In this document: positions 25,145 to 59,521 of the stretch, piece after piece | How the letters are laid out: the number at the start of each line of letters is the position of its first letter | Numbering within the stretch: position 1 is the stretch's first letter | From: Bacteroidales bacterium | GTDB taxonomy: Bacteria > Bacteroidota > Bacteroidia > Bacteroidales > UBA932 | DNA length: 62,771 nucleotides | Direction of reading: 5' to 3' | NCBI GenBank assembly: GCA_024398295.1 | Contig: JAKSJL010000003.1 | Location: 1 to 62,771 of the forward strand | Program-made: the position numbers and the translations under genes | The notes under the pieces: model-generated | Told to the model about the DNA's origin: nothing | The model's input: only the letters and a program-made list of their open reading frames with translations | Databases searched by the model: none

Positions 25145-25930
25145 ATGGGACACGATAAACTTAGAAAATTTGCTGAGAACGAGACATTTTCATGCCTCGT
25201 GCAGCCTTCTTCGCAGGATCTTCTCGCAGATGGCTACTTTTCACTCAAGGACCATGAGATCAAGGGGCAGTGGAACGCCCAGATGTTCAGGCAGCCTCAG
25301 CCTATAGTGCTTGAGCTGGGCTGCGGAAAGGGAGAGTATACCATTGACCTTGCAGAGCGTATCCCTGAGAGAAACTACATCGGCGTGGACATCAAGGGAG
25401 CCCGCTTGTGGAAGGGCGCCAAGTATGCCCACGAGCATCAGCTTCCCAATGTAGCCTTCCTGCGCACCAGGATAGAGTTCATCAAGTCCTTCTTCGCGCC
25501 TGGCGAGGTGTCGGAGGTGTGGCTGACCTTCTCGGATCCGCAGATGAAAAGCGAGAACAGCCGCCTCACGTCTCCACTCTTCCTTGACAGGTACCGCTCA
25601 TTCATGAAGCCTGGCGGCGTGGTGCACCTGAAGACGGACAGCGTGTTCCTGCATCAGTACTCAAAGGCCATGTGTGAGGCCAATGGTCTCAAGATTCTCG
25701 CATGTACAGAGGACCTGTATGGCTCCGAGAGGCTCGATGTGCCGTCTCTTTATGAGGTGCAGACCTTCTATGAGAAGATGTTCCTTCAGCAGGGATATAA
25801 GATCACATACCTCTCCTTCGTGATAGATCACGAGGGTGACTATGTGTATCCTGAGTTTGATGATGAGTACTGGCGCAGCGTAGAGGGACCTCGCAGGTCA
25901 TTCTCGCACCAGCCGCATAAGAAGGCCTAG
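25145..25930 (+). CDS. trmB: tRNA (guanine-N7-)-methyltransferase
   Basis: A 261-residue enzyme that makes m7G46 in the tRNA variable loop. SAM motif I is [35 protein letters not shown], and the catalytic block [37 protein letters not shown] replaces the common FPDPWPKKRH form, as in Bacteroidota members. It begins one base after the gldH-like stop. Its TAG shares a CTAG with the smpB stop on the other strand. Confidence 0.93.
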
Positions 25931-26376
25931 CCTCTCTCCATCTCTCTTCGGAGATCCTTCTCCTTGATGGACTCTCTCTTGTCGTACTCCTTCTTACCCT
26001 TCGCCAGGGCTATGTGGAGCTTCGCGTAACCATTTTCCGCAATATAGAGCCTTACCGCTACGATGGTGAGGCCTTTCTGTTTTACGGCCTGCTGGAGGTG
26101 ACGCAGCTCTTTCTTGTTTAGCAGGAGCTTTCTGTCGCGTGCAGGCTCGTGGCCATTCCACGTGCCCCAGAAATAGGTGGAGATGTTCATTCCCTTCACG
26201 TAGAGCTCGCCATTCACGAAATAGCAGAATGCCTCTGAGAGGGATGCCTTGCCCATGCGCAGAGACTTGATCTCTGTGCCGACCAGCACGATACCGGCCT
26301 CGTATGTCTCCAGGAACTGGTAGTCAAACGAAGCTCTGCGGTTGTTTATCTGTATTTTGCTCTTTGCTTTAGGCAT
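25927..26376 (-). CDS. smpB: SsrA-binding protein SmpB
   Basis: A 149-residue protein that binds tmRNA and delivers it to stalled ribosomes. Hallmarks are [41 protein letters not shown], the [16 protein letters not shown] block and the C-terminal [25 protein letters not shown] tail that enters the decoding centre. The ATG at 26376 gives the usual length; the in-frame extension to 26487 lies in the opposing miaA gene. A -7 promoter element sits 6 bases upstream of the start. Confidence 0.96.
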
Positions 26377-26382
26377 AGGCTG

Positions 26383-26390
26383 CAAATGTA
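26383..26390 (-). promoter_or_regulatory. -7 element for smpB
   Basis: CAAATGTA on the plus strand is TACATTTG on the minus strand. It ends 6 bases before the smpB ATG, so the mRNA would be almost leaderless. Confidence 0.6.
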
Positions 26391-26403
26391 CGATATTTTT
26401 CGT

Positions 26404-26411
26404 TAACTTTG
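26404..26411 (+). promoter_or_regulatory. -7 element for miaA
   Basis: TAACTTTG lies 8 bases before the miaA ATG at 26420. No clear -33 box is visible. It faces away from the smpB element 13 bases to the left. Confidence 0.55.
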
Positions 26412-26419
26412 AGGACGAT

Positions 26420-27235
26420 ATGCCAAAAATCAAGCTGACCATACCGGCTGAGCTCCCTGCGGCGGAGTTCATTGATGTAGAAGCCATCTCTTCTGCCTTC
26501 GACAGGGGAGAGACAGACCTCGTGTGTGTTCTGGGCCCGACAGCGTCTGGAAAGACGCGTTATGCTGTGGCGCTCGCGGGTAAGCTGGATGCGCTGGCGC
26601 AGGAGGCAGGGTCGTCACGCCGCTGTGAGATCATCTCTGCCGACTCCCGCCAGGTGTACAGGGGCATGGACATTGGCACAGGAAAGGACCTCTGTGAGTA
26701 TGGGGATGTGCCTTATTGGATGATAGACATACGCCCTGCCGGCGATAGGTACAATGTTTACGAGTATCAGAAGGATTTCGTGAAGGTCTATCAGGATATA
26801 GTGTCACGTGGGAACCTTCCTATACTGTGTGGCGGCACCGGCTTGTATATAGAGGCTGCAGTCTGTCGCTATGACTTCAACAAGGAGACACCGACGGTGG
26901 ATCCGTCACTGCTGCCCCAGAAGACCTATTTCATAGGTACATTGGTGGATCGTGAGACCAGGAACGCCCGCATAGATGCTCGTCTTCGCGCTCGTCTCGA
27001 GGAGGGCATGGTGGATGAGGTGAAGCGTCTGATCTCGGAGGGTGTAGACTCGGAAACGCTTATCTATTACGGACTTGAGTACAAGTTTGTCACCCAGTAT
27101 ATCCTGGGCATCCTCTCTTATGAGGATATGTTCACCCTGCTGTCAAATGCCATCCATCAGTTCGCGAAGCGTCAGATGACGTGGTTCCGCGGCATGGAGA
27201 GGAAGGGCATGCTGATTCATTGGACAGAGGTATAG
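26420..27235 (+). CDS. miaA: tRNA dimethylallyltransferase (short MiaA-type)
   Basis: A 271-residue enzyme that prenylates A37 of tRNAs reading U-starting codons. It has the P-loop GPTASGKT (residues 39-46), the signature [19 protein letters not shown] and [12 protein letters not shown], then a shortened C-terminal part ([18 protein letters not shown] ... [16 protein letters not shown]). Usual MiaA proteins have about 300 residues; many Bacteroidota carry a second, shorter one of this kind, and this may be that copy. About 30 residues precede the P-loop, more than in E. coli. Confidence 0.88.
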
Positions 27236-27317: not shown

Positions 27318-27662
27318 ATGAGAACATCTGGGATTTATTTTGATTCGTCGAGGTTTGACGAGGTAGTACCTTGTCAGCTTCGTTGTGTAGAGGGTTTGAC
27401 CCTTGATGAGGGGGAGTGGGTATGTGCCCGCCTTCGCTGCAGGCTCCGCCCTTCTTTCTTCAGGAAGATTATGGGGCAGAGGGACGCCTATGGACTCGTT
27501 TTCATAGGACATACTCCACCTCCCGCAGACCTAATGACCTTCATCACGCCATATCTGGCCGACGGGGTCTGCATCACTCTGCGCTGTGGGGATAAGAAAA
27601 TCCCCAAGCGCATCGCTCACTGCGACCCGCTCGGGGAATTCACTGTACTGTATGAGGCCTAG
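27318..27662 (+). CDS. Conserved-looking small protein of unknown function
   Basis: A 114-residue protein with no signal peptide, starting at the ATG at 27318, 25 bases after a consensus promoter. It is rich in Arg, Cys and Phe (VPCQLRCVEGLTLDEGEWVCARLRCRLRPSFFRKIMGQRDAYGLVF). Four of its cysteines fall in C-x3-C and C-x4-C spacing, which hints at metal binding but is not diagnostic. I recognise no family. The stop overlaps that of metK in a CTAG. A good promoter and full frame argue that it is real. Confidence 0.6.
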   Translation: MRTSGIYFDSSRFDEVVPCQLRCVEGLTLDEGEWVCARLRCRLRPSFFRKIMGQRDAYGLVFIGHTPPPADLMTFITPYLADGVCITLRCGDKKIPKRIAHCDPLGEFTVLYEA

Positions 27663-28984
27663 AGGCCGAATGCTTCCTTGATCCTGTCCACTGAGTCGAG
27701 AAGCTCCCAGCCGAAGAACTGGAGCTCTTTCTCTACCTTCTTTCCGTTGCGGATCAGAGGCATCACCTTGGTGTATGGCTTCTTTCCGAAGTGGCCATAG
27801 GTGGCGGTAGCCTCGAAGATAGGGTTCTTGAGTCCGAACTTGCTGATGATCTTCGCTGGTCTGAGGTCGAAGAGCTTTTTGACCATGTCAGCGATGTAAG
27901 CGTCGGTGGCCTCTCCGTGCTTGTCAGAGATGTTTGCTGAAGCAGGTGCGCTGACATGTGCTGAGCCATAGGTGTCGACATAGACGCTGACTGGCTCAGG
28001 CACGCCGATGGCGTATGCCACCTGCACGAGGCACTCGTCCGCTACGCCGGCGGCTACGAGGTTCTTCGCGATGTAGCGAGCTGCGTAAGCTGCAGAGCGG
28101 TCTACCTTCGATGGGTCCTTGCCAGAGAACGCGCCGCCGCCGTGTGCTCCGCGTCCGCCGTAGGTGTCCACGATGATCTTTCTTCCGGTCAGGCCGGTAT
28201 CGCCTGCAGGACCTCCGATCACGAACTTTCCGGTAGGGTTCACGTGGAGGATGAACTTGTCGTCGAAGAGTTTCGCGGTCTTCTCAGGAAGGGATGCGAT
28301 GAGTCTAGGGATGACGATGTTTCGTACATCTTCCTCGATCTTTGCCCTCATGGCGTCATCGTCGTCATCGAAAGGATCGTGCTGGGTGCTGAGGACGATG
28401 GTGTGTACTCTGAGAGGCTGGTGCTTTCCGGAAAACTCGATGGTGAACTGAGACTTGGAGTCTGGACGGAGGTAAGGCATGGTCGCAGGCTCATTGTGAC
28501 GTATGTCGGCGAGGATCTCAAGCATCCTGTGCGAGAGAGACAGGGCGAGAGGCATGTACTCCTCTGTGTCTGTGCAGGCATAGCCAAACATCATGCCCTG
28601 GTCGCCGGCGCCCTGTGCGTCGTCGCTGTCCTTGGTCTTCTGTCCGGTGATGGCGTTTGTCACGCCTCTGTTTATGTCTACGCTCTGGCCGTGGATCCTG
28701 TTTATAATCTCACATGTGGCTGCGTCGAACTCATACTCTGGCTTGTTATAGCCGATGTGGTCGATCACCCTGCGTATGGTGCTCTCCACATCTATCTTTG
28801 TGCCCTCTATCGCGCTGGTCTCACCTCCTACGAGGACTAGGTCAGTGGTGCAGAATGTCTCGCATGCGACCTTCGCATCTGGGTCCTGGCTGAGATATGC
28901 GTCGAGGATGGCGTCTGAAATCTGGTCGGCTACCTTGTCTGGATGTCCTTCAGAGACCGACTCGCTGGTAAATAAATAATTCAT
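27659..28984 (-). CDS. metK: S-adenosylmethionine synthetase
   Basis: A 441-residue enzyme that makes SAM from methionine and ATP. It has the family landmarks TSESVSEGHPDKVADQISDAILDAYL at the N terminus, the hexapeptide GAGDQG and the P-loop-like GGGAFSGKDPSKVDRSAAY. An acidic insertion (DPFDDDDDAMRAK) and a length above the E. coli 384 residues are usual in Bacteroidota. Its leader carries a consensus promoter, a SAM-II-like aptamer and an intrinsic terminator that ends 9 bases before the ATG, so expression is probably shut off by its own product. Confidence 0.98.
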   Translation of the reverse strand: MNYLFTSESVSEGHPDKVADQISDAILDAYLSQDPDAKVACETFCTTDLVLVGGETSAIEGTKIDVESTIRRVIDHIGYNKPEYEFDAATCEIINRIHGQSVDINRGVTNAITGQKTKDSDDAQGAGDQGMMFGYACTDTEEYMPLALSLSHRMLEILADIRHNEPATMPYLRPDSKSQFTIEFSGKHQPLRVHTIVLSTQHDPFDDDDDAMRAKIEEDVRNIVIPRLIASLPEKTAKLFDDKFILHVNPTGKFVIGGPAGDTGLTGRKIIVDTYGGRGAHGGGAFSGKDPSKVDRSAAYAARYIAKNLVAAGVADECLVQVAYAIGVPEPVSVYVDTYGSAHVSAPASANISDKHGEATDAYIADMVKKLFDLRPAKIISKFGLKNPIFEATATYGHFGKKPYTKVMPLIRNGKKVEKELQFFGWELLDSVDRIKEAFGL

Positions 28985-28992
28985 GTCCTAAT

Positions 28993-29025
28993 AAAAAAAA
29001 AACTCCGGCATAGGGATATGCGGAG
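28993..29025 (-). terminator. Intrinsic terminator in the metK leader
   Basis: On the minus strand CTCCGCATA pairs with TATGCCGGAG (one bulged base, four-base loop) and runs straight into ten T residues. It stands between promoter and start codon of the same gene, so it must act as an attenuator, since any constant termination would silence metK. Confidence 0.88.
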
Positions 29026-29059
29026 CTGCTTGATGCGACTATAAATGCAAACAATATAT

Positions 29060-29113
29060 GTAGAATTTTAGCATTTTTTAGTGTGGTTGCAAGCAGGCAA
29101 ATCTGTCCACATT
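29060..29113 (-). promoter_or_regulatory. SAM-II-like riboswitch aptamer upstream of metK
   Basis: On the minus strand, a 5-bp P1 helix (TGTGG at 29107-29111 with CCACA at 29082-29086) encloses a loop with GATTT (29099-29103) and TTGCAA (29087-29092). It is followed by AAAAAATGCTAAAA ending near 29065. These blocks, in this order and spacing, are the conserved core of SAM-II (SAM_alpha): GAUUU, UUGCAA, P1, then the A-rich GCUAAA. TTGC can pair with GCTAA to form pseudoknot helix P2a. The second pseudoknot helix, P2b, is not obvious. The related SAM-V class is the main alternative. Confidence 0.72.
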
Positions 29114-29131
29114 CCGTATGTTTTGGGAGTG

Positions 29132-29162
29132 CAAAATTAGCACAAAGAATTGGATTGTCAAA
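29132..29162 (-). promoter_or_regulatory. Promoter for metK
   Basis: Reading the minus strand: TTTG (29159-29162), 19 bases, then TAATTTTG (29132-29139). The RNA would start near 29126, giving a leader of about 140 bases that contains the whole aptamer and terminator. Confidence 0.8.
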
Positions 29163-29242
29163 ATTTTCCGCTCGTTTTTGTAAATAATGCATAGTGTTGA
29201 CTGTTAAATCGTTAAATATTTTAAGAGACGCTTTTTTTGAAG

Positions 29243-29290: not shown

Positions 29291-32200
29291 ATGGGAAATT
29301 TTAAAAAAGTATTCCTTACCATCGCAGCGCTTCTCGCAAGCGTAGTGATGTTTGCACAGGGCACTACATCATCGATGACAGGTGCCGTTACAGACCAGAA
29401 TGGTGAGCCTCTCGTAGGCGCTACCGTAGTGGCTGTTCACACTCCTTCAGGCTCACAGTACTTCTCTGTAGCCGGTAACAATGGTTACTATACCATCAAC
29501 GGTATGCGTCCAGGTGGTCCATACGTGGTTACAGTATCCCTGATCGGCTGCAAGTCTGTAAGATTCGAGAACCTCACCCTTCAGCTTGGTGAGACCTCTA
29601 CTCTCGACGCCGCTCTCGAGGAGGACACCCAGATGCTCAATGAGGTCGTTGTGATCGCTGACGCTGCTTCTCGCTTCGCTACTGAGAAGACCGGTGCATC
29701 AACCAACGTCTCAAACCAGCAGATGATGAACCTTCCAAACACCAGCCGTAGCATCTCTGCTATCGCTAAGCTTTCTCCTTATTCAAATGGCATGAGCTTC
29801 GCCGGTGGTGATGGTCGTTCAACAAACTTCACTGTGGATGGTGCGAACTTCAACAACAACTTCGGTCTTTCATCAAGCCTTCCTGGTGGCGGTACCCCTA
29901 TCTCACTCGACGCTCTCGAGGAGATGCAGATCGTCATCGCTCCTTTCGACGTTCGTCAGTCAAACTTCGTAGGTGGTGGTATCAACGCTATCACCAAGTC
30001 TGGTACAAACTCATTCGCAGGTACCGCATACACCTATTACTCAGATGAGAATTTCCGTGGTAACAAGGTTATGGGTGAGGACCTCGGCGAGCGCAAGCCA
30101 GAGCAGAACAAGATCTATGGTCTCACACTCGGTGGCCCTATCGTAAAGGACAAGCTCTTCTTCTTCGTAAACTTCGAGATGCAGAAGAAGCCTGAGCAGG
30201 CTATCAAGTATCAGCCATCTGCTGACAAGCAGAATGTTCTCCAGAAGATCAGCGACAAGCTCCAGAATGACTACGGTTACAATGCTGGTTCATACACTGA
30301 CTTCCCTGGTGGTACCGACAACATGAAGATGCTCGCCCGTCTCGACTGGAACATCTCTGACGCTCACAAGCTCAGCCTCCGTTTCAACAAGACAAACAAC
30401 CAGTACTGGTACGAGCCAAACGGAAACTCTTGTGATGACAAGTTCCGTAACAAGAGCTACAACCGTTCAAGCGAGCAGGCTCATCCTTTCTCAAACAACA
30501 TGTACTCTCAGATGAGTAATGTTACCTCTTTCGCAGGTGAGCTTAACAGCCGTTTCGGCTCTAAGGTGGCTAACCGTTTCCTTGCTACCTATACAAACAT
30601 CAACGATCAGCGTGGAAGCAACTCATCTTTCTTCCCACATGTCGATATCATGGACAGCGCTGACTACTCTTCAGGTAACTTCAAGCCTTACACCTCATTC
30701 GGTTATGAGCTCTTCACCTATAACAATGGTGTGAAGAATAACAACCTCCAGATCCAGGATGATGTTACTCTCTACCTTGGCGAGCATACCGTTACCGCTG
30801 GTGCGCGTTTCGAGTACATGAAGGCTCACAACTCTTACATGCGTAATGGTACTGGCTACTATCGCTATGCAAGTGCTGAGGACTTCCTCAATGGTGCCCT
30901 CCCTCTTTCATTCTGTCTTACCTATGGTTACGACGGAAATGATAATCCTGCAGGTGTTGTAGAGTACACTCAGTCAGCTGCTTACGCTCAGGATGAGTGG
31001 AAGATCGCCCGTAACTTCAAGCTTACCTATGGTGTACGTGCCGAGCTCGTTGCATTCGACGACAAGGCTATCGTGACAAACCCTAACATCGCTGCTATCG
31101 ACTACGGCGGAAAGCACATCGATACCGGTGTATGGCCTAAGACTCGCATCCAGGTTTCTCCACGTGTAGGTTTCAACTGGGATGTTAATTCTGACAAGAG
31201 TCTCATCGTTCGTGGTGGTCTCGGTATGTTCCAGGGTCGTCTCCCTCTCGTATTCTTCACCAACATGCCTCAGAACTCAGGTATGATCCAGGGTAGCTAC
31301 ACTGCTTCTGCACAGATCAAGGAAGGCGTGCTCGTTTATGATGATTCTGTAAAGGAGGTTCTCGGCAAGCTTACCGCAGGTGGCAAGATGATGACCGACA
31401 CCAAGGAGATCGTGAAGCTTCTTGGTCTCCCTACCACAGCAGATCCTGCAAAGGCAGGTCTCGGTGGCCAGAGCTATATCGGTGGTGTGGATTCAAACTT
31501 CCGCATGCCTCAGATCTTCAAGACCTCTCTCGCAGTTGATTACACCGTTCCTGTTAACTTCCCATTCACTATCACAGCTGAGGGTATGTTCAACAAGACC
31601 ATCTACGGTGTGATGATCCAGGACTGGTCACTCAAGGATGATGCAAGCGTGCTCAAGCACTTCGCTGGTCCAGATAAGCGTCTCATGAATATCAATGATT
31701 CACGTTATCACAATACCAATGCATACGTGATGACAAATACAAACAAGGGTTACGGTTACTCTGCAAACGTTACTCTCAACGCAGAGCCTGTAAAGAACCT
31801 CAAGTTGATGGCAGCTTACACTCACATCGAGTCTAAGGAGCTCTCAGGTATGCCAGGTTCAGCTGCGAACTCAGTGTTCACAGGTCTCCCAACCATCAGC
31901 GGTGCAAACAACACAGATCTTCAGAGAAGCCAGTATGTAGTTCCTAACAAGGTTATGGCTAGTGTTAACTACGCTATCTGGGGCTTCAACTTCAACCTCT
32001 ACTACACAGCTTCTTCAGCTGCAGGTAACAGCTACATCTACACCAACGATATGAATGGTGATGGCAATGCTACCGACCTTATCTACATCCCTGCTACCAA
32101 GGACGAGATCAACTTCAAGACCCCTGCAGATGCAGACGCATTCTGGGCATTCCTTGAGGCTGACAAGTACCTCAGCAGCCACAAGGGTCAGTACGCAGAG

Positions 32201-32551
32201 GCTTATGCAGCTCGTTCACCTTGGCTCCACAGATTTGATTTCAGCGTAAGCAAGGACTTCAGCTTCAAGATCGCAGGCAAGACCCACGGCTTCCAGCTCA
32301 GCGCTTCTATCGACAACATTGGCAACCTTCTCAACTCTAACTGGGGCGTTACCAAGATGTCTGCTTACCAGACTTCACTCAACGGCACCATCGCTCCTCT
32401 CAAGTATGAGGGTGTAAATGCAAGCAACGAGCCTATCTTCTCAATGGTTAAGGCTGGTGAGGTTTACCCTGTACAGAACTACATCAAGTCTTTCATCGAC
32501 AACACTCAGTGCTGGCATGCTCTCGTAGGCATCAAGTACTTCTTCAAGTAG
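29291..32551 (+). CDS. Oar-like TonB-dependent receptor 1
   Basis: A 1086-residue outer-membrane protein. After a signal peptide (MGNFKKVFLTIAALLASVVMFAQ) comes a carboxypeptidase-regulatory-like beta domain (residues about 25-110: MTGAVTDQNGEPLVGATVVAVHTPSG), a plug (residues about 115-240, with FTVDGANFNNNFGLSS and GGGINAITKSGTNSF) and a large barrel ending in aromatic residues (VGIKYFFK). Oar-type receptors have no SusD partner, and none is encoded here. The cargo is unknown; Myxococcus Oar exports or handles a protein, while other members take up nutrients. It is a single-gene unit closed by a strong terminator and is paralogous to the next gene. Confidence 0.93.
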   Translation: MGNFKKVFLTIAALLASVVMFAQGTTSSMTGAVTDQNGEPLVGATVVAVHTPSGSQYFSVAGNNGYYTINGMRPGGPYVVTVSLIGCKSVRFENLTLQLGETSTLDAALEEDTQMLNEVVVIADAASRFATEKTGASTNVSNQQMMNLPNTSRSISAIAKLSPYSNGMSFAGGDGRSTNFTVDGANFNNNFGLSSSLPGGGTPISLDALEEMQIVIAPFDVRQSNFVGGGINAITKSGTNSFAGTAYTYYSDENFRGNKVMGEDLGERKPEQNKIYGLTLGGPIVKDKLFFFVNFEMQKKPEQAIKYQPSADKQNVLQKISDKLQNDYGYNAGSYTDFPGGTDNMKMLARLDWNISDAHKLSLRFNKTNNQYWYEPNGNSCDDKFRNKSYNRSSEQAHPFSNNMYSQMSNVTSFAGELNSRFGSKVANRFLATYTNINDQRGSNSSFFPHVDIMDSADYSSGNFKPYTSFGYELFTYNNGVKNNNLQIQDDVTLYLGEHTVTAGARFEYMKAHNSYMRNGTGYYRYASAEDFLNGALPLSFCLTYGYDGNDNPAGVVEYTQSAAYAQDEWKIARNFKLTYGVRAELVAFDDKAIVTNPNIAAIDYGGKHIDTGVWPKTRIQVSPRVGFNWDVNSDKSLIVRGGLGMFQGRLPLVFFTNMPQNSGMIQGSYTASAQIKEGVLVYDDSVKEVLGKLTAGGKMMTDTKEIVKLLGLPTTADPAKAGLGGQSYIGGVDSNFRMPQIFKTSLAVDYTVPVNFPFTITAEGMFNKTIYGVMIQDWSLKDDASVLKHFAGPDKRLMNINDSRYHNTNAYVMTNTNKGYGYSANVTLNAEPVKNLKLMAAYTHIESKELSGMPGSAANSVFTGLPTISGANNTDLQRSQYVVPNKVMASVNYAIWGFNFNLYYTASSAAGNSYIYTNDMNGDGNATDLIYIPATKDEINFKTPADADAFWAFLEADKYLSSHKGQYAEAYAARSPWLHRFDFSVSKDFSFKIAGKTHGFQLSASIDNIGNLLNSNWGVTKMSAYQTSLNGTIAPLKYEGVNASNEPIFSMVKAGEVYPVQNYIKSFIDNTQCWHALVGIKYFFK

Positions 32552-32664: not shown

Positions 32665-32698
32665 TGGTTTAAAAGATATGTTTAACTTTTCAGCATTT

Positions 32699-35600
32699 AT
32701 GAAAAAATCAATCAAGGTTGTGTTGTCGCTCATCGCGATGATGCTCATGAGTGTGTCTGCCTTCGCTCAGGTGACCACTTCATCTTTGAACGGTAAGATC
32801 ACCGATGCAAATGGTGCTCCTGTGGCAGGAGCTGCAGTGATCGCCGTCCACACTCCTTCTGGTACCCAGTACTATGCAGTGGCTGACAATGATGGTAGCT
32901 ACTACATCAACGGTATGCGTGCCGGTGGTCCTTACACAGTTCAGGCTACTTGCCTCGGCTACAAGGATGTAACTTTTACAGATGTTACCCTTCAGCTCGC
33001 AGAGCCTTTCGTGCTCAATTACAATCTTCCAGATGACTCTGAGGTCCTTTCTGAGGCCATCGTCATCTCGACAGCATCCACCAAGTTCTCTTCAGAGAAG
33101 ACAGGTGCTGCGACAAACATCAGCAGTAACCAGATCATGACACTTCCTTCTATCAGCAGAAGTGTGACTGACATCACCAAGCTTTCTCCTTACGGAGGAA
33201 ACGGTATGAACTTCTCTGGTACCTCTGGTCGTTCAGCGAACTTCACTGTCGATGGTGCGAACTTCAACAACAACTTCGGTCTTTCTACCAGCCTTCCTGG
33301 TGGTGGCAACCCTATCTCTATCGATGCTATCGAGGAGCTCCAGGTCGTTATCTCACCTTACGATGTACGTCAGTCAAACTTCATCGGTGGTGGTATCAAC
33401 GCTATCACAAAGTCAGGTACAAACACCTTCAAGGGTTCAGCTTACACATACCATCGTAACGAGAACATGCGTGGTAACCGTGTGAATGGCAAGGAGCTCG
33501 CAGAGCGTACCATTGACCGCACCACTACTTACGGTTTCACTCTCGGTGGCCCTATCATCAAGAACAAGCTCTTCTTCTTCGTGAACGGTGAATACTCAGT
33601 GATCCCTTCTACCATGAACAAGTGGAGACCATCTGAGGACGGTGTCGCTGATCCTGACAAGAACATCAGCCGTGTGACCATGAAGGAGGCTCAGGACATG
33701 AGAGATTTCCTTATCAGCAAGTACGGCTATGATCCAGGTTCTTTCACAGAGTATCCTGCAGACAAGAAGAACTACAAGATGCTCGCTCGTCTCGACTGGA
33801 ATATCTCAGACAAGCATCACCTTGCACTCAGATTCAACCACACAAACAGTGTGACCTGGTCTATGCCTTCTTCTTCACGTGATATCGCAGCATTCGCAAA
33901 CAGCTCACAGAGCCAGTACGCTATCACATTTGCGAACTCTGCATACTCGATGAACAACAAGATCTCGACTGTTTCATTTGACTTGAACAGCCGTATCTCA
34001 AATAACCTTTCAAACCAGTTCCTCGTGACATATTCTGATATCGAGGATGTACGTGGCAGTAACTCAGACCTCTTCCCTATGGTGGAGATCGCTGCAGGTG
34101 ACCTCGGCGAGACCGATATGCCTTATATGCTCTTCGGCTATGAGCTCTTCACCCTCTATAACAGAGTGGGTAACCAGACTCTTACCGTAAAGGATGACCT
34201 CACATACTACAAGGGTGCTCACAAGCTCACCGCAGGTATCAGCTACGAGGGCCAGGTCGCTCTCAACTGCTACATGCGTAATGGTACCGGTATGTTCCGT
34301 TACGACTCTATCTCAGCATTCAAGGAGGGCAAGGCTCCTGTAGCCATGGCATTCGACTGGGGTTACAACGGCGCTGACGACCCTTCTGCTACAGTACGCT
34401 TCTCTCAGATCGGCGCATACGCTCAGGACGAGTGGAAGCCTGTTGACAACTTCAAGCTCACTGCTGGTGTGCGTTTCGATACCATCGCATTCAACAATGC
34501 TGACGTGATGACAAACAACGCCATCCTCGAGGCTGATTACGGCGGACGTCACATCGACACTGGTATGTGGCCTAAGACCAACATCCAGATCTCTCCACGT
34601 GTAGGTTTCTCTTGGGATGTACTCAGCGACAAGACTCTCACCGTTCGTGGTGGTACCGGTCTCTTCGCTGGTCGTCTCCCTCTCGTGTTCTTCACCAACA
34701 TGCCTACAAACTCAGGTATGGTTAAGGGCCGTGCTACACGTATCACCGACAAGGCCCTTCTCGAGAAGTTCGCAGGCGGTCTCGTTACCGACAGAAAGGA
34801 GATTCTTAACATCCTGAACTCACACGATCCTAAGAAGTATCCTACCACCATCACTCCAGAGGATGGTACCATGCCTTCAGAGATCGCAGGTGTGGATCCA
34901 AACTTCAAGATGCCTCAGGTATGGAAGTCTTCTATCGCTATCGACTACAGACCTAACGTCTCATTCCCTCTCTCATTCACCGCTGAGTATATCTTCAACA
35001 AGACCATCAACGGAGTGATGCTTTCGAACTGGAACATCAAGGACGAGAATGCAGGCTGGGCTACATTCAATGGTGCTGACGGACGTCACATCTATCCATC
35101 ATCTTACAAGTACACAAAGACTGATGCTTTCGTGCTTACAAACACAAACAAGGGTTATGGTTCAGTGCTCGCACTCTCTATGAACGCAGAGCCTGTGAAG
35201 AACCTCCGCGTGACTGCTTCTGCTACCCACACTGTGGCTAAGGAGCTTACCGGTATGCCTGGCTCAAATGCATCTGCAGCATGGCAGTACATCCCTTCAG
35301 TTGAGGGTCCTAACTTCATGACTCTCCACAACTCTTCATACAACAACCCATTCCGTGGCATGGTGTCTCTCTCTTACACCACAAAGAATGATGTCTACAG
35401 CCTCTTCTATGAGGCAAATCAGTACGGCGGAAACAGCTACATGTACTTCAACGACATTAACGGTGATGGCTATCAGTATGACCTCATGTACATCCCTAGA
35501 GATGAGTCTGAGATCAGCTTCGTTTCACCTGCTGATGCAGCTCGTTACTGGGCTTTCGCAGACCAGGACGAGTACCTCACAGCTCACAAGGGTGAGTACG

Positions 35601-35935
35601 CTGAGGCTTATGCAGTGACACAGCCTATCGTTCAGACCATTGATTTCCACTACGCACATAACTTCAGAATCAAGGTCGGCAAGAGCACAAACACTCTCCA
35701 GCTTAACTTCGATATCAACAACCTCCTTAACCTCTTCAACTCTTCTTGGGGTGTAGCTAAGACTTTCTCTCCAGAGGCTATGTCAGGCCGTCTGCTCAAG
35801 TATGAGTACACAAACAACGAGGGTAAGCCAGTATTCTCTACCAGAGTTCCTGAAGGTGCAAAGACTTGGGATTACACATACTCAAGCGGCAACTGCTGGT
35901 ACATGCAGATTGGTCTCAGATACATGTTCAACTAA
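32699..35935 (+). CDS. Oar-like TonB-dependent receptor 2
   Basis: A 1078-residue paralogue of receptor 1 with the same layout: signal peptide (MKKSIKVVLSLIAMMLMSVSAFAQ), regulatory-like domain (LNGKITDANGAPVAGAAVIAVHTPSG), plug (FTVDGANFNNNFGLSTSLPGGG) and barrel. I choose the ATG at 32699 because it gives a typical signal peptide; 32678 is possible. The plug is close to identical with that of receptor 1, while extracellular loops differ (for example residues 640-700), as expected if they bind different cargo. The lipoprotein gene 18 bases downstream probably encodes its surface partner. Confidence 0.93.
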   Translation: MKKSIKVVLSLIAMMLMSVSAFAQVTTSSLNGKITDANGAPVAGAAVIAVHTPSGTQYYAVADNDGSYYINGMRAGGPYTVQATCLGYKDVTFTDVTLQLAEPFVLNYNLPDDSEVLSEAIVISTASTKFSSEKTGAATNISSNQIMTLPSISRSVTDITKLSPYGGNGMNFSGTSGRSANFTVDGANFNNNFGLSTSLPGGGNPISIDAIEELQVVISPYDVRQSNFIGGGINAITKSGTNTFKGSAYTYHRNENMRGNRVNGKELAERTIDRTTTYGFTLGGPIIKNKLFFFVNGEYSVIPSTMNKWRPSEDGVADPDKNISRVTMKEAQDMRDFLISKYGYDPGSFTEYPADKKNYKMLARLDWNISDKHHLALRFNHTNSVTWSMPSSSRDIAAFANSSQSQYAITFANSAYSMNNKISTVSFDLNSRISNNLSNQFLVTYSDIEDVRGSNSDLFPMVEIAAGDLGETDMPYMLFGYELFTLYNRVGNQTLTVKDDLTYYKGAHKLTAGISYEGQVALNCYMRNGTGMFRYDSISAFKEGKAPVAMAFDWGYNGADDPSATVRFSQIGAYAQDEWKPVDNFKLTAGVRFDTIAFNNADVMTNNAILEADYGGRHIDTGMWPKTNIQISPRVGFSWDVLSDKTLTVRGGTGLFAGRLPLVFFTNMPTNSGMVKGRATRITDKALLEKFAGGLVTDRKEILNILNSHDPKKYPTTITPEDGTMPSEIAGVDPNFKMPQVWKSSIAIDYRPNVSFPLSFTAEYIFNKTINGVMLSNWNIKDENAGWATFNGADGRHIYPSSYKYTKTDAFVLTNTNKGYGSVLALSMNAEPVKNLRVTASATHTVAKELTGMPGSNASAAWQYIPSVEGPNFMTLHNSSYNNPFRGMVSLSYTTKNDVYSLFYEANQYGGNSYMYFNDINGDGYQYDLMYIPRDESEISFVSPADAARYWAFADQDEYLTAHKGEYAEAYAVTQPIVQTIDFHYAHNFRIKVGKSTNTLQLNFDINNLLNLFNSSWGVAKTFSPEAMSGRLLKYEYTNNEGKPVFSTRVPEGAKTWDYTYSSGNCWYMQIGLRYMFN

Positions 35936-53909: not shown

Positions 53910-55457
53910 ATGAAAAGAGTATTTATCACATCCCTCATTGCCCTTGCTGTGGCTTTTTCTGTCAGCGCTCAGGACAAGGTGGTAAAGAAGGTCCTCGAGC
54001 TCGGAAAGGAGGATAACAGGACCATGGAGCACGCTGACTTCCTCGCGAACAGGATCGGCGGACGCGTAGTGGGTTCGCATGCACTTCAGGACGCAGAAGC
54101 CTGGGTGGCTGAGCAGTTCAAGTCCTGGGGACTGGAGGTCATGATCCAGGAAGTGGGCGAGATCCCTGTGGGATTCACCCGTGGGCATTGGACTGGAAGG
54201 ATGATAGGCGAGGGCGGTGAGATGCACCTGCATTTCGCGACTCCTTCATACACGGCAGGCACCAAGGGACCTCAGAAGGGACGCGTGTTCATGGAGCCTC
54301 GCACTCGCGCTGAGTTTGAGAGGATGAAGGGCGTGCTCAAGGGCTCATGGGTACTCATAGGTGGCACTTCAAATGGCTTCCCTACGGACTGGAGCGCCCA
54401 GGGCGACTCTATCCGTCGCGAGAAGATTGCGAAGAATGAGGAAATTACGAAAAGGAACAATGAGTTGATGAGATGGGTGCTGGCGCACCCTGGCGAGGAG
54501 AAGGAGTTTGAGGAGCTCGACGAGACTCCGTGCCTATTCTACCGCGAGATGGTGGATGCTGGCGTACTCGGATTCATCCAGTCTTCGGGTCTTCCTATCC
54601 AGGCACATTATGACAGGAAGGGCTGCTATAACATCACCATGGAGAACCTTCCTACCGTGTGCGAGATCAAGCTCGACAGGGAGCAGTACGATATCATTGC
54701 CCAGAAGGTGAAGGATAAGAGAGACATTCAGCTGGAGTTTGACATCAGGAACTATTTCTTCCGCGGGCCTGTGAAGTATCACAATGTCATCGGTATCATC
54801 CGTGGTGCCAAGTATCCTAAGGAGTATGTGCTTCTCGGTGGGCATCTGGATGCCTATGATTCAGCTACAGGTGCCGTGGATGATGGACATGGCGTCGCAG
54901 TGACCATGGAGGCAGCCCGCCTTCTCGCTGCCGCTGGCGCCAAGCCTGCCCGCACCATGATGTTCTGCGTGTGGACTGGTGAGGAGTATGGTCTTCTCGG
55001 CTCGAAGTACTTCGTGGAGAACAAGACTGTGCCTTACGAGAAGATCGCCAATTACTTCAATAGAGATGGTGGTCCTCTTGCATCAGTGGGTATCGATGTG
55101 CCTTCGGCAATGTATCAGGACTTCGTGAAGATTTGCAAGCCTCTTGAGAATTATGACGAGAGCATGCCGTTCTCTGTCACCGAGCGCAAGGGCGAGCCTC
55201 GCCCACGCCCTAAGTCTGCCGGTGGTTCTGATCATGCCTATTTCGCGATGAACGGCGTGCCAACTATCTCGTTCGCCGAAAGAGATGTAAAGGGTTATAA
55301 CTTCAACTATCGTGACATCTGGCATACCGACCAGGATCTCTACTATCGTCTTTATCCTGACTATATCGAGTACTCAGCAGTCGTGGAGGCCGTCACCGCC
55401 TATGGCGTGGCGAACCTTGACCACCTTCTGAGCCGAGAAGGGCTGTATAAGGAGTAA
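53910..55457 (+). CDS. Secreted M28-family metallopeptidase
   Basis: A 515-residue exported peptidase (signal MKRVFITSLIALAVAFSVSAQ). The two-zinc site is complete: GGHLDAYDSATGAVDDGHG (His and bridging Asp), WTGEEYGLLGSKYF (catalytic Glu and ligand Glu), NRDGGPL (Asp) and GGSDHAYF (His). A PA-like insertion lies between residues about 95 and 260. It resembles carboxypeptidase-Q-type aminopeptidases. The gene follows rnr by 3 bases and ends the long plus-strand run. A relic-derived hairpin at 55511-55541 may terminate it. Confidence 0.92.
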   Translation: MKRVFITSLIALAVAFSVSAQDKVVKKVLELGKEDNRTMEHADFLANRIGGRVVGSHALQDAEAWVAEQFKSWGLEVMIQEVGEIPVGFTRGHWTGRMIGEGGEMHLHFATPSYTAGTKGPQKGRVFMEPRTRAEFERMKGVLKGSWVLIGGTSNGFPTDWSAQGDSIRREKIAKNEEITKRNNELMRWVLAHPGEEKEFEELDETPCLFYREMVDAGVLGFIQSSGLPIQAHYDRKGCYNITMENLPTVCEIKLDREQYDIIAQKVKDKRDIQLEFDIRNYFFRGPVKYHNVIGIIRGAKYPKEYVLLGGHLDAYDSATGAVDDGHGVAVTMEAARLLAAAGAKPARTMMFCVWTGEEYGLLGSKYFVENKTVPYEKIANYFNRDGGPLASVGIDVPSAMYQDFVKICKPLENYDESMPFSVTERKGEPRPRPKSAGGSDHAYFAMNGVPTISFAERDVKGYNFNYRDIWHTDQDLYYRLYPDYIEYSAVVEAVTAYGVANLDHLLSREGLYKE

Positions 55458-55615
55458 GCAGTACTGCCTTTAGAGGAGAAATACTTAGGTCGTTGTTGCA
55501 ACGAAGTTTTGTGGATATGCCCATTATCAAAGCATATCCACTTATTATTTGTGTATTGAGAAGTTTATGGAATGAGGTGCTTACATCATTATCATATTGT
55601 TCGTTGTATTAGTAT
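55458..55615 (-). pseudogene. Decayed fragment of an AraC-family regulator gene
   Basis: Read on the minus strand, this stretch encodes about 50 residues that line up with the middle of the intact AraC protein encoded at 58494-59378. The clearest block is SGYALIMGISTK (intact copy SGYAQIMGISTK), preceded by STSFHKLLNTQI and followed by LSISPLKAVL (intact LGIPPQRAVV). About 27 of 34 bases match around 55511-55544. The N-terminal cupin domain and the second helix-turn-helix are missing, a stop codon lies just upstream, and the frame runs into the M28 gene. It is a remnant, not a gene. Confidence 0.72.
55511..55541 (+). repeat. Inverted repeat, possible terminator of the M28 gene
   Basis: GTGGATATGC (55511-55520) and GCATATCCAC (55532-55541) form perfect 10-bp arms with an 11-base loop, followed by a modest T-rich stretch. 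The repeat comes from the coding sequence of the araC relic, where the same arms occur in the intact gene, and may now serve as a weak terminator. Confidence 0.6.
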
Positions 55616-55637
55616 AAACATGTATACACACTGGAAA

Positions 55638-55681
55638 ATTTATTATCTATTTATGGCCAGGGTCGCATACAGATAATAAAT
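55638..55681 (+). promoter_or_regulatory. Palindrome upstream of the lipase operon, candidate AraC operator
   Basis: ATTTATTATCT (55638-55648) and AGATAATAAAT (55671-55681) are perfect 11-bp inverted arms 22 bases apart. The left arm plus flank, ATTTATTATCTATTT, recurs exactly in the palindrome upstream of the intact araC gene (59397-59411). It lies about 50 bases before the lipase -7 box. The rest of the gap up to 55814 shows no gene. Confidence 0.6.
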
Positions 55682-55729
55682 AGTTGCTTATGTGTAATTT
55701 GTTCTATGCTGTTTTTGTGGATAATCAGC

Positions 55730-55737
55730 TATATTTG
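55730..55737 (+). promoter_or_regulatory. -7 element for the lipase operon
   Basis: TATATTTG lies 77 bases before the ATG at 55815. TTTG words upstream are at wrong distances (12 or 28 bases), which fits a promoter that depends on an activator. Confidence 0.5.
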
Positions 55738-55814
55738 TTTGCGATGAATGCTCTGTATGCGTTTTCTAGACCATTCTATGGTAGGCGGTGAAGTTAAGTA
55801 AACAATAGAATAAA

Positions 55815-57065
55815 ATGAGCAAGTACTTTTTACCAGTTATCTTTATGTGCGCGCTAACTGTATGTGTCAATGCGCAGAATCCCACTCATGTTTATTGGCT
55901 CCATGGATTAAATGACAATTGGATGTTTTGGGATAAATACCAGAAAACCATTACACCGCTATACTGGGATAACCAACAATATGACAGCAATGATAGTGCA
56001 TACATTACAGCTAGTGCCATTTCTAATAGGATGGCCTCGCCTGCGATTCTTGTCGGACATAGTGCAGGAGGTGTTATTGCAAGAGAAGTTGCAGAGGTTG
56101 ACCAAGGAGCAAATACTATCAAGGGAATCATTACATTTGGAACACCAAACTCAGGCGCTGGAATAGTTCGATCTGTGTTGAATCATGATTACTATAACGT
56201 AATTGACAGAGCCGGTGAAAAAGTCGCCTCTGCAATTAATGGTACGCTGTCAACTATTAGTATATTACCATTTCCGGCCATTGTCAGCATTGTGCTATAT
56301 TTGCAGAATTCGCTCGCGGTTGGCGGCCTAGAAATGTTGGGCCTAGAAATGTGTAAAGATATTGCAGATTCATATGTTAATGAGAACTATTTGAGTTGTC
56401 AACTCTTTCGCGATTTGAGCCCAGATTCAAATACGATTAACTCACTGCCTCAGATTAATCAAACTATTCCTATCATTAATTACTATGGAGAGGAAGATAC
56501 ATGGCCATTGATAAGACTGCTAGGCTCCTTAAGTCACTCAAATGATATTAGGACACAGCATTTCAGTAGTAACGTAACATATGATGATGCCTTTCTTGGT
56601 TATATGAGGACGGCCGAAAGCGTCTGTAATGGTTTTATCGCCGGCCATGCAGCTATTTCAGCTGCATTAGGTGTGATTTCTTTCTACAATCCGTCATTCC
56701 TACCAGCATCTGTAATGTCTGCCTATGCTGTTACCCAGTGGAACTCACTTAAACGGTATATTGACTATGATATGCATAACGATTACTCAGAACTCATAGG
56801 AGCATATCATTATGTGGTCAAAGAAGAAACTACTGGCTGGTGGCTATGGAGGCGTGTTACATACACAACGGTGAAAGTATATGAGGGACATGATGGACTT
56901 GTGGCAAAGAAACAATCGATGATGGACACTTCTTCTGGGAATGTTATTAACATATCGCTCCCCGGAGTCAACCATATGGAGATGAATGGTCACCCTTTGG
57001 CTAAAGTCGCAATAATACAATCTTTGAATGGTTTAGTAGATAGCAGAATAAACATGAACAATTAG
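55815..57065 (+). CDS. Secreted alpha/beta hydrolase, lipase-like
   Basis: A 416-residue protein with a signal peptide (MSKYFLPVIFMCALTVCVNAQ). The hydrolase fold shows an oxyanion-region WLHGLND near residue 28, the nucleophile elbow GHSAGG (Ser 83) and, near the C terminus, EGHDGLV (acid) and GVNHMEM (His). This is a full catalytic triad. The PGAP1/lipase-2 kind of core suggests an esterase or lipase; the substrate is unknown. The gene is clearly richer in A+T than its left neighbours and uses different codons, which suggests acquisition. It leads an operon with two lipoprotein genes. Confidence 0.82.
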   Translation: MSKYFLPVIFMCALTVCVNAQNPTHVYWLHGLNDNWMFWDKYQKTITPLYWDNQQYDSNDSAYITASAISNRMASPAILVGHSAGGVIAREVAEVDQGANTIKGIITFGTPNSGAGIVRSVLNHDYYNVIDRAGEKVASAINGTLSTISILPFPAIVSIVLYLQNSLAVGGLEMLGLEMCKDIADSYVNENYLSCQLFRDLSPDSNTINSLPQINQTIPIINYYGEEDTWPLIRLLGSLSHSNDIRTQHFSSNVTYDDAFLGYMRTAESVCNGFIAGHAAISAALGVISFYNPSFLPASVMSAYAVTQWNSLKRYIDYDMHNDYSELIGAYHYVVKEETTGWWLWRRVTYTTVKVYEGHDGLVAKKQSMMDTSSGNVINISLPGVNHMEMNGHPLAKVAIIQSLNGLVDSRINMNN

Positions 57066-57075
57066 AAGATAAATT

Positions 57076-58086
57076 ATGAAAACATATCTGAATGTCGCAA
57101 TCATAAGTCTCAGCCTTAGCGTACTGTTTTCCTGCAACAGGGCAGAGAATAGAGTGGAAAATCCTGATAATAACGACTTAGAATCAAGAGAAATAGCAAT
57201 TATTCAGAGCCAAAAGTATAGGCATTTGAGCCGGAGTAGAAGAATTATACCTTCAAAAGATAATGAATTTCTCTCTGACGACATAACTTCATCGATGATG
57301 TCTTCATCTAGATATAAGAATAATTGGACAAAGAGTGGTAGCGATAGCGAGGATGAGTACGATTCTTCTGAAGAGATACCTATTGATGAGGAAGTGTATG
57401 AGAATCTTGTTATTTACTACGATGGTGGCATAGAGTTCACTCAGGAAACAGTTTTAGATACTACATCGAATCCAATTCTAGCCGTATATGACTACCCGCT
57501 TGATTTGTCTCACTATGTCTCGAGGGTTGAGATTGTGGACGGAATCTGTTGCAGCTATAGCAGAGACGGTGAACTCCTTTACGAAGGACCGACGAATGTG
57601 CCAGATATGCATGAACTCATACTAGAAATGGAAGCGTATTCGGAAGGACTATATGAGGAGGAGGAAGGAGATACGAGAAGCGCTCCACTAAAGGGTAGGG
57701 ATAGACTGGAAAACATCCTTTCGAGGCAACTTCGTGGTTTGTCAAAGGCAGACTACCTGATAACAGAGACACACGAAGGTATTGAGGTGTCGATTAAGGT
57801 TGGAGATTCCATGGAGACAAATGCACTATATGATGATGGTTCATTATCTGTCACTAAGATGGACTTGATTGTTGGTGGGCAACTTGTGGAGCGTCAGGTT
57901 TTTGGGTATGACAATAATTCGATGATGCAAGCGATAACAGGAGATAAGTTACTGAAACATAATCCTAGCGTGATGAAGACTATGAAAATTGGCATTTTTG
58001 CAGATGGGAGCCCTTGCATGATCGAAGATACGAGAGTTTATTCAGAAAATAGAATGACATACATACCAAGAAAAATGAGAAAATGA
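57076..58086 (+). CDS. Lipoprotein of unknown function
   Basis: A 336-residue lipoprotein (signal ending SVLFSC, Cys 20) starting 10 bases after the lipase gene. Residues about 25-110 are low-complexity and charged, rich in Ser, Asp and Glu (KSGSDSEDEYDSSEEIPIDEE). The C-terminal 220 residues look folded and end in a beta-rich part (KMDLIVGGQLVERQVFGYDN; MKIGIFADGSPCMIEDTRV). I recognise no domain. Its stop overlaps the next start in ATGA. A partner or surface anchor for the lipase is possible from context only. Confidence 0.7.
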   Translation: MKTYLNVAIISLSLSVLFSCNRAENRVENPDNNDLESREIAIIQSQKYRHLSRSRRIIPSKDNEFLSDDITSSMMSSSRYKNNWTKSGSDSEDEYDSSEEIPIDEEVYENLVIYYDGGIEFTQETVLDTTSNPILAVYDYPLDLSHYVSRVEIVDGICCSYSRDGELLYEGPTNVPDMHELILEMEAYSEGLYEEEEGDTRSAPLKGRDRLENILSRQLRGLSKADYLITETHEGIEVSIKVGDSMETNALYDDGSLSVTKMDLIVGGQLVERQVFGYDNNSMMQAITGDKLLKHNPSVMKTMKIGIFADGSPCMIEDTRVYSENRMTYIPRKMRK

Positions 58087-58490
58087 AAAGATTGGCTTTG
58101 CTCTTGATACTATTTGTTGCGGTGACGGGATGCGACTTTTTGAAAGCGCTAAACGATGAAATACACACCTTTGTGATACCGCTTTATGACTATCCTGAAA
58201 TCATAGATGCACCTCCTGAAGGAGGTTTTGTTAATCTGTGCTTTCGCACAAATGCAAGGGATCTTGATATGTACCCGTTACGTGATACTACTCTAGCTGA
58301 ATACTGTACTATGGCGAAGGAAGTCAATGGAAATGTGTATAGTTTCACTTTTTCTTTAGACGAAAACGAAACAGAGGAAGAGCGAATGCAATGTTTAGTG
58401 GTCTGCTATACGAAATTCTCTGGCTTTTTTTGGGATAAAAGGTATACGATAAGACAATTAGGTCGTGGTCTCTCCAGTCGAAGAGATTGA
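58083..58490 (+). CDS. Small BACON-like lipoprotein
   Basis: A 135-residue lipoprotein (signal ending AVTGC, Cys 17). The mature part has the strand order and key features of a single BACON-like beta domain: PPEGGFVNLCFRTNA near the start and a closing YTIRQLG, comparable with the usual V-x-I-x-Q-x-G ending. It is coupled to the preceding gene by ATGA and ends 3 bases before the convergent araC gene. Its role is unknown. Confidence 0.65.
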   Translation: MKRLALLLILFVAVTGCDFLKALNDEIHTFVIPLYDYPEIIDAPPEGGFVNLCFRTNARDLDMYPLRDTTLAEYCTMAKEVNGNVYSFTFSLDENETEEERMQCLVVCYTKFSGFFWDKRYTIRQLGRGLSSRRD

Positions 58491-58493
58491 CCT

Positions 58494-59378
58494 TCAAAGT
58501 TTGCCTGCCTGCTTTGCCTTTCTGTACTCTGCTGGAGTTTGTCCTGTCTCTTTTTTGAAGAATTTCTGGAAATGAGGCGCCGTTTTGAACCCCAGATGGA
58601 AACCTATCTCTTTAACGGAGAGGGATGTGTATTGCAGCATACGTTTGGCTTCATAGATGACTCTTCTTACTACTGCTCTTTGCGGTGGTATGCCTAAGTA
58701 GTCGATAGAGCTTAGTGTAAGTGTTTTAGTGGATATGCCCATAATTTGGGCGTATCCACTAATGGGTATGTGCTCAAGATAGTGTTGTTCTATTAGCTCT
58801 TTGAACTGTAGCCCATAGTTGTTGTTATTCTCAGTCAATACTAACGCTGAATCCCTATTTATGATATATAGAATGGATAATAGAAGACTACATAATATTT
58901 GATGTTTAGCCCCTTTATCTTCGTTTTGATGTTCGAGTGAAAATGCCTTCAGGATACTCTCCAATGCTGATTCCGATGATACATTGATGCATTTCGGCGA
59001 TGGGCCAAAGAGGTTATACTTGATGTATTTTTGTTGCCTGTTATCTAAGATTGAAAGGAATTGTTCTGTAAATGCAATTATATATCCCTTCATACTCTTC
59101 ACTTCTGTCGTATTGTGAACACAATGTGGTGGCAGTATAAATACGCATCCTGCATGAAGGGGTATAGATGCTCCGTCAATTTCATAAATGCCAGACCCAG
59201 ATGTGACGATATGAATGAAGAAATATGAGTGGGTATGTGGTTGAACAATAGCTCTACCGACTGTCATTGGTATTTCTCCAATCTCTTCGATTATTATCTG
59301 AGTGCCGGTGGGGAGATCCTCATTAATTGTAATATTGGGCACTTTCTTCTCGTAATCTTGTAACTGCATCTTTTCCAT
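58494..59378 (-). CDS. AraC-family transcriptional regulator
   Basis: A 294-residue regulator. The N-terminal half is a cupin (HTHSYFFIHIVTSGSGIYEIDG ... VFILPPHCVHNT) that would bind a small ligand. The C-terminal half has two helix-turn-helix units: FKELIEQHYLEHIPISGYAQIMGISTKTLT and SVKEIGFHLGFKTAPHFQKFFKKETGQTPAEYRK, the second being the AraC signature. It is A+T-rich like the lipase operon that converges on it. A -7 box sits 5 bases before the ATG, and a large palindrome covers the -33 region, so it is probably autoregulated and needs an activator. A second ATG (59369) is possible. Confidence 0.92.
   Translation of the reverse strand: MEKMQLQDYEKKVPNITINEDLPTGTQIIIEEIGEIPMTVGRAIVQPHTHSYFFIHIVTSGSGIYEIDGASIPLHAGCVFILPPHCVHNTTEVKSMKGYIIAFTEQFLSILDNRQQKYIKYNLFGPSPKCINVSSESALESILKAFSLEHQNEDKGAKHQILCSLLLSILYIINRDSALVLTENNNNYGLQFKELIEQHYLEHIPISGYAQIMGISTKTLTLSSIDYLGIPPQRAVVRRVIYEAKRMLQYTSLSVKEIGFHLGFKTAPHFQKFFKKETGQTPAEYRKAKQAGKL
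58726..58762 (+). repeat. Long inverted repeat inside the araC coding region
   Basis: Arms at 58726-58741 and 58747-58762 (16 bp with one G-T pair, 5-base loop) encode the first HTH residues ISGYAQIMGISTK. The araC relic retains a 10-bp version at 55511-55541. Confidence 0.75.
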
Positions 59379-59383
59379 AAATG

Positions 59384-59391
59384 CAAATATA
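59384..59391 (-). promoter_or_regulatory. -7 element for araC
   Basis: CAAATATA on the plus strand is TATATTTG on the minus strand, ending 5 bases before the araC ATG. There is no TTTG in the -33 region; the palindrome at 59394-59443 lies there instead. Confidence 0.6.
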
Positions 59392-59393
59392 GG

Positions 59394-59443
59394 ACGATTT
59401 ATTATCTATTTGTTACCTATGTAATAAATGGATAATAAATCGT
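59394..59443 (-). promoter_or_regulatory. Large palindrome upstream of araC, candidate operator
   Basis: Arms 59394-59411 and 59426-59443 match over 18 bp with one mismatch around a 14-base centre. It covers the -33 region of the araC promoter and also lies upstream of the divergent lipoprotein/lipase operon. It shares ATTTATTATCTATTT with the palindrome at 55638. Confidence 0.68.
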
Positions 59444-59521
59444 AATGAATGTATAAGATGCCCGGAGTTGTCGCATTGGTTTATTGGTTATATTCACTTG
59501 AATTATAAATGTTTTGTCTCT

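Follow-up and report, generated by a model that had tools for sequence, protein, structure and literature searches.

The metK leader on a 62,771-nucleotide stretch of a Bacteroidales contig (JAKSJL010000003.1, assembly GCA_024398295.1; hereafter the window) probably works as a SAM-off switch of transcription, and a strand of aptamer helix P1 is predicted to double as the antiterminator. A SAM-II aptamer followed by a terminator, which would give product feedback on metK, is the best-supported reading. The aptamer itself is not new, as Bacteroidetes have stood on the RF01726 family listing since 2010. What is newly predicted here is the mechanism, in which the pairing of the P1 strand would overlap the terminator arm.

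Candidate SAM-II riboswitch upstream of metK

The whole window was scanned with Rfam covariance models; the initial annotation of this DNA had proposed such a search for 28980-29170 on the minus strand. The sole match at gathering threshold was RF01726 (SAM-II long loop), located at 29058-29116 on the minus strand with a score of 59.9 bits, 16 bits above the cut-off of 44 (E 5.1e-9). Table 1 of PMC2864571 assigns this family, "SAM-II long loops", to Bacteroidetes and marine sequences, and SAM-II in Bacteroidetes is also recorded in PMC2258182. The alphaproteobacterial family RF00521 (SAM_alpha) was rejected, as it reached just 17.3 of the 36 bits needed. SAM-V was likewise dismissed, being absent among the six Rfam matches listed at E<=10. 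The genome containing the window, which is 76% complete, held one RF01726 match.

The ordered SAM-II blocks described earlier were each found in place in the sequence and the Rfam alignment, all on the minus strand. These are the P1 strands TGTGG (29107-29111), the one predicted to double as an antiterminator strand, and CCACA (29082-29086), and the core blocks GATTT (29099-29103), TTGCAA (the P2 5' strand, 29087-29092) and GCTAAAA (the P2 3' strand, 29066-29072). The GCTAAA strand lies 3' of P1 at 29072-29067, as SAM-II requires. P1 covaries in the genus, with 47/54 cells paired at pairs 3-5 compared to 34.0 +/- 2.7 expected (0/5000 shuffles), and a single P1 pair occurs as T-A, A-T and G-C. 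Covariation therefore upholds a P1 that encloses GATTT...TTGCAA, as in RF01726 members.

On the minus strand, a Bacteroidetes-type promoter is followed by the RF01726 aptamer, a spacer, a hairpin with ten T residues, and metK. The promoter (29132-29162) had already been recognized; it consists of TTTG (29162-29159), a 19-nt spacer and TAATTTTG (29139-29132), matching the sigma-ABfr consensus TTTG / TAnnTTTG as quoted in PMC7366714. The arrangement TTTG-N17-21-TAnnTTTG was present in 75/184 leaders with enough upstream sequence but in only 0.24% of mononucleotide shuffles. The terminator stem-loop (29003-29025) has its 5' arm at 29025-29018 and its 3' arm at 29011-29003 with C29008 bulged (-11.6 kcal/mol; also obtained in forced folds). 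It is followed by a U-tract of ten T (28993-29002), the last of which lies nine bases ahead of the A of the metK ATG (28984), as first described. This stable GC-rich hairpin and U-tract have the form of an intrinsic terminator. A simple terminator scan of the metK leader found none, and we think that the one-base bulge at C29008 likely breaks the stem-and-loop rule of that scan, so that the hairpin was missed.

The gene downstream, metK (27659-28984, minus), encodes a methionine adenosyltransferase of 441 aa that matched TIGR01034 with 480.8 bits (cut-off 309.4). The aptamer thus stands upstream of a SAM/methionine gene, as expected of an RF01726 member. Taken together, the metK leader is a riboswitch candidate that reaches the score of a known family at the expected place.

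Neighboring DNA

The metK promoter sits in a 306-base gap between metK and an ORF at 29291-32551. This ORF and a similar one in tandem (32678-35935; 1086 and 1085 aa, both on the plus strand) are transcribed away from metK, and the former had a weak match to a SusC/RagA outer-membrane model (50.6 bits, cut-off 368). The ORFs of smpB (25927-26487, minus) and miaA (26342-27235, plus) overlap as listed. The SmpB start is probably internal, as the better profile match begins at residue 40, and MiaA scored 142.1 bits in two stretches, just below the cut-off of 148.65. GC content was 0.41 at 55001-60000 and 0.49-0.55 in the remaining 5-kb blocks.

Conservation in relatives

The initial annotation had staked its claim on a covariance-model hit and on conservation in the metK leaders of relatives, and both were found. 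RF01726 matches were present in 175/199 family genomes, all above the cut-off, in 112/121 genus genomes (111 above the cut-off), and in 12/99 genomes of a phylum sample. At the 111 family loci examined (L001, 30 further loci and 80 fetched regions), metK was present in every case. The aptamer motif was located upstream of metK by pattern at 109 of these and could be seen in the sequence itself at the remaining two. Genus loci comprised 30 matches with a locus and 60 fetched regions; the 113 loci labeled as genus include eight named ones (L112-L119) assigned by likeness.

Across all 279 loci, 3 were without a metK match; among the remaining 276, 47 fell outside the motif pattern, which itself demands the GCTAAA strand in parsed relatives. 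Fourteen of these 47 come from the family and match RF01726 but have AATTT in place of GATTT; the GATTT core is therefore not invariant. These loci (L043, L056, L061, L074, L083, L085, L090, L092, L094, L098, L103, L106, L108 and L111) stand outside the counts. The nearest named MetK records are from Bacteroidales MAGs, several of them from rumen or gut samples, with L112 originating from yak omasum. One genome (G004) carries the same leader and metK twice, on different contigs (L081 and L082).

The outer P2 helix is missing

By inspection, the window has no outer P2 helix, in which the loop that follows GATTT would pair with the bases 3' of GCTAAA. The initial annotation had called this helix P2b (P2a in PMC6061858) and noted that it was not evident, which is true at the level of sequence and is common to the family. 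A 4-bp outer P2 occurred in 2/86 genus leaders and in 2/63 leaders from other genera of the family, not above the chance level of about 4%; the Rfam RF01726 model does not score this helix. Some RF01726 relatives elsewhere in Bacteroidota carry CAG, the outer P2 strand, right after GCTAAA. This was the case for 10/43 parsed metK leaders from other named Bacteroidota, a set that includes at least two (L121 and L122) from family genomes, and 8 of the 10 have Flavobacteriia names. In contrast, CAG at this position was found in 0/86 leaders of the window's genus and 0/63 in the rest of the family.

Predicted antiterminator fold

The minimum-free-energy fold of the leader is a nested antiterminator of three predicted helices, all on the minus strand. 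In the outer helix, 29106-29115 pairs with 29014-29024 (A29017 bulged), and the latter side overlaps the 5' arm of the terminator. The middle helix joins 29090-29098 with 29025-29032, leaving C29096 unpaired, and the inner helix joins AAATGC (29071-29076) with GCATTT (29043-29048). Additional pairing in this fold is between 29082-29079 and 29041-29038. Two competing pairings had been pointed out at the start (29090-29096 with 29026-29032, and 29071-29076 with 29043-29048); both are perfect as given and are contained in the middle and inner helices. The accompanying statement that the competing fold abuts the terminator without overlapping it needs correction, as a third helix, in which 29115-29106 pairs with 29024-29014, occupies the terminator 5' arm. 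There the P1 5' strand (29112-29106) pairs with the arm at 29018-29024, and the outer helix together with C29025 covers the arm entirely. Bases 29111-29107 consequently have mutually exclusive partners, the P1 3' strand and the terminator arm.

When the leader was cut at 29013, the fold was the antiterminator, with a z of -2.2, compared to just -0.65 for the full-length leader. Four 3' ends between 29016 and 29007 were tried without ligand; the probability of the antiterminator was 0.97-0.99 at these, and that of P1 was 0.0. The folding program models neither the pseudoknot nor SAM. Bound SAM was represented by a stand-in in which P1 was forced and the core was barred from other pairs. With the aptamer held closed in this way, the antiterminator fell to 0.0 and the terminator reached 0.93. 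At full length, the antiterminator and terminator folds are equal in energy at -24.4 kcal/mol each, and therefore the choice between them would be kinetic. The full-length ligand-free ensemble gave about 0.75 for the terminator and 0.13 for the antiterminator, which counts against the scheme; the scheme therefore needs kinetic trapping.

We propose that, without SAM, the P1 5' strand would quit P1 and pair with the terminator 5' arm (29018-29024) as the arm emerges. The two inner helices, built from the P2 strands of the aptamer, are predicted to hold this fold together, and polymerase would then read through into metK. With SAM, P1 and the pseudoknot would close and leave the terminator arm free; the hairpin could then form, and transcription would stop before metK.

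Apparent fit between the terminator arm and the aptamer

In the window, the aptamer pairs with the terminator arm at -15.4 kcal/mol. This value was reached by 17/589 arms of other terminators, and by none of the 18 among them that lie in the window, in a control matched for arm length, which contains the reverse strand of one aptamer and so errs against the antiterminator reading. In the unfiltered control set, 48/768 arms reached the window's energy.

We also replaced the 5' arm of each leader with 60 arms of unrelated terminators. In the window, sequestration of the native arm was 0.89, a value reached by 0/60 swaps. Among genus leaders, 49/53 were at 0.5 or above, with four below; 29/53 beat at least 95% of swaps and 24/53 did not. 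Of 37 other leaders, three of which are from outside the family (L156, L157 and L176), 35 were at 0.5 or above, two were below, and 24 beat at least 95% of swaps. By script, 4 genus leaders and 70 further ones had no terminator. As 2380/5400 swaps reached 0.5, arms of foreign origin are frequently sequestered too. Overall, the swaps suggest that the terminator arm is fitted to the aptamer.

Two leader arrangements in the genus

GCTAA lies 1-12 bases from the metK ATG in 40/97 distinct genus leaders and more than 40 bases away in 57/97, with none between; the 57 include L236, which was misparsed through a motif that occurs by chance 41 bases upstream of metK. A terminator was detected by script in 53 of the 57 long leaders. 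The short form often reads GCTAAAATG. The 76 leaders from other genera divided into 10 short and 66 long.

On a tree of MetK from 99 genus members, many of them fragments, 11 changes of arrangement were needed; well-supported branches enforce 5 of these changes, and 48/96 inner branches are weak. Placement of all long leaders in one clade was rejected (AU 3.5e-38). The window and its sister L221 are long leaders within a clade that holds 24 short ones (SH-aLRT 97), and therefore the terminator was either regained there or kept while the neighbors lost theirs.

In the short form, A was present at -3, -6, -12 and -13 in 0.75, 0.70, 0.80 and 0.90 of 20 distinct starts, versus 0.39, 0.35, 0.63 and 0.58 of the 57 long leaders. 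PMC6847099 reports that initiation in Flavobacterium johnsoniae is promoted by A at these four positions, and that the phylum is without Shine-Dalgarno sequences. In the leaders that abut the AUG, SAM would block initiation. A start codon near the pseudoknot has a precedent in SAM-V (PMC2704228).

Covariation within the genus and in sister genera

Alignment of relatives' metK leaders in search of covariation, as recommended in the initial annotation, had a mixed outcome: P1 covaries in the genus and the signal in sister genera is clear, while that between the P1 strand and the terminator arm within the genus is weak. For the latter, 221/290 cells were paired (29 distinct pairs) versus 215.8 after shuffling, a value reached by 263/5000 shuffles when relatedness is ignored; seven of 113 genus loci did not parse, and 3 duplicates had been taken out. 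Slid registers of the strand against the arm gave at most 62% paired, compared to 76%, and in L251 and L258 both sides of the pairing have changed, from U-A to C-G. The signal is modest because long leaders have a nearly constant P1 strand. The P1 5' strand reads GTGGA in 54/55 long leaders (L236 again counted) versus 16/44 AUG-abutting ones (Fisher 2.6e-12); by independent pairs on the tree, which are too few, this association was not significant.

In L221, the window's sister, the outer helix is kept and the inner helix is different. Six genus leaders (L039, L202, L209, L214, L255 and L259) carry another terminator, GCCGCAG...CGGC; its arm, together with the bases upstream of it, pairs with GGCTGCTTGCA of the aptamer and not with the P1 strand.

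Among the sister genera of the family, GTCAAATC was found in 32/68 parsed long leaders with one mismatch allowed, versus 4% of shuffled leaders, and is complementary to the aptamer core GATTTGAC. Six positions flanking GTCAAATC and GATTTGAC covary, with 79/126 cells paired (21 distinct pairs) versus 70.0 +/- 2.9 (0/5000, relatedness ignored). Four of the 32 leaders (L002, L049, L059 and L095) were without a terminator by script. In L048, L013 and L007, the 3' arm of the terminator has the sequence of the core itself, GATTTGAC. From these sequences, the sister genera appear to set the core strand GATTTGAC against the terminator arm, the same logic with another strand.

Six long leaders from other genera (L002, L019, L049, L058, L059 and L065), in which the script detected no terminator, have an AT-rich hairpin directly before the metK ATG, for example CTAAATAATT...AATTATTTAG. 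These are perhaps a third, translational arrangement.

Alternative explanations and comparison with known systems

The terminator may not be gated through P1, with SAM acting via the two inner helices alone, or with a constant attenuator combined with an effect of SAM on metK translation. We regard this as unlikely. It would agree with the full-length ligand-free ensemble, which already favors the terminator (about 0.75 to 0.13), and with a hairpin that stops 9 bases short of the ATG, close enough to bear on initiation; likewise, PMC9373788 describes a terminator downstream of SAM-II in S. meliloti metA on which no effect of SAM is predicted. However, the outer helix takes the whole arm at a probability of at least 0.97 during arm synthesis, the swaps suggest an arm fitted to the aptamer, and the sister genera covary.

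The missing outer P2 raises the prospect of a SAM-II descendant whose ligand was lost or changed, which we consider quite improbable. The 4-bp helix is no more frequent than chance in the genus (2/86) and the other genera (2/63), and an A. tumefaciens metA mutant with disrupted P2 showed a cleavage pattern unchanged by SAM (PMC1273637); judging by the numbering, the mutated positions would be the outer pairs. Against this, RF01726 matches above the cut-off persist in 175/199 family genomes with metK at 111/111 loci, and SAM-V, said to be without the final 3' pairing element, nevertheless binds SAM (PMC2704228, PMC6061858). Least credible, to the point of being nearly negligible, is an ordinary 5' leader that resembles SAM-II by chance or a leader-peptide attenuator. 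An ORF of 80 aa (29192-28950) does overlap the leader, but it begins upstream of the promoter and was dismissed, and a chance likeness would have to score 16 bits above the RF01726 cut-off and be kept with metK across the family.

The preferred reading is that of a SAM-off switch with a P1-strand antiterminator. In the SAM-I terminator riboswitches of Firmicutes, a strand of an aptamer stem is traded for the antiterminator. The strand trade predicted in the window is of this kind, although the aptamer is unrelated and no SAM-I match was found at gathering threshold. With RF01726 the leader shares an above-cut-off match, the core blocks and the phylum. Classical SAM-II (RF00521; A. tumefaciens metA and S. 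meliloti metZ) also has a terminator after the aptamer and is predicted to be SAM-off (PMC1273637, PMC9373788). The leader resembles SAM-V in that neither has a final 3' pairing element, and in the AUG-abutting relatives the aptamer ends no more than about ten bases from a start codon, as is reported for SAM-V (PMC2704228). SAM-V is described as translational (PMC6061858), whereas the window's leader has a terminator.

No account of the RF01726 expression platform was found in the literature searched, in which PMC2864571 keeps its SAM-II details in an additional file, and the accessible part of PMC12121620 has nothing on Bacteroidetes metK. The predicted P1-strand antiterminator, repeated change of arrangement and lost outer helix go beyond this literature, the additional files of PMC2864571 and of the SAM-V discovery paper aside. 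According to PMC2258182, SAM-II reaches its expression platform through a distal pseudoknot; in the window, the P1 5' strand is predicted to do so instead.

It is an evenly balanced question whether the genus aptamer, without its outer P2, is a portable SAM-gated module. In such a module, the P1 strand would imitate the 3' arm of the terminator, and the leader would have switched repeatedly between two outputs, termination of transcription and a SAM-bound fold that buries the start codon of metK (GCUAAAAUG). Initiation would take place at the A-rich SAM-binding strand, Shine-Dalgarno sequences not being used in this phylum. Similar aptamers in two arrangements among related species offer a natural experiment on the evolution of riboswitch outputs.
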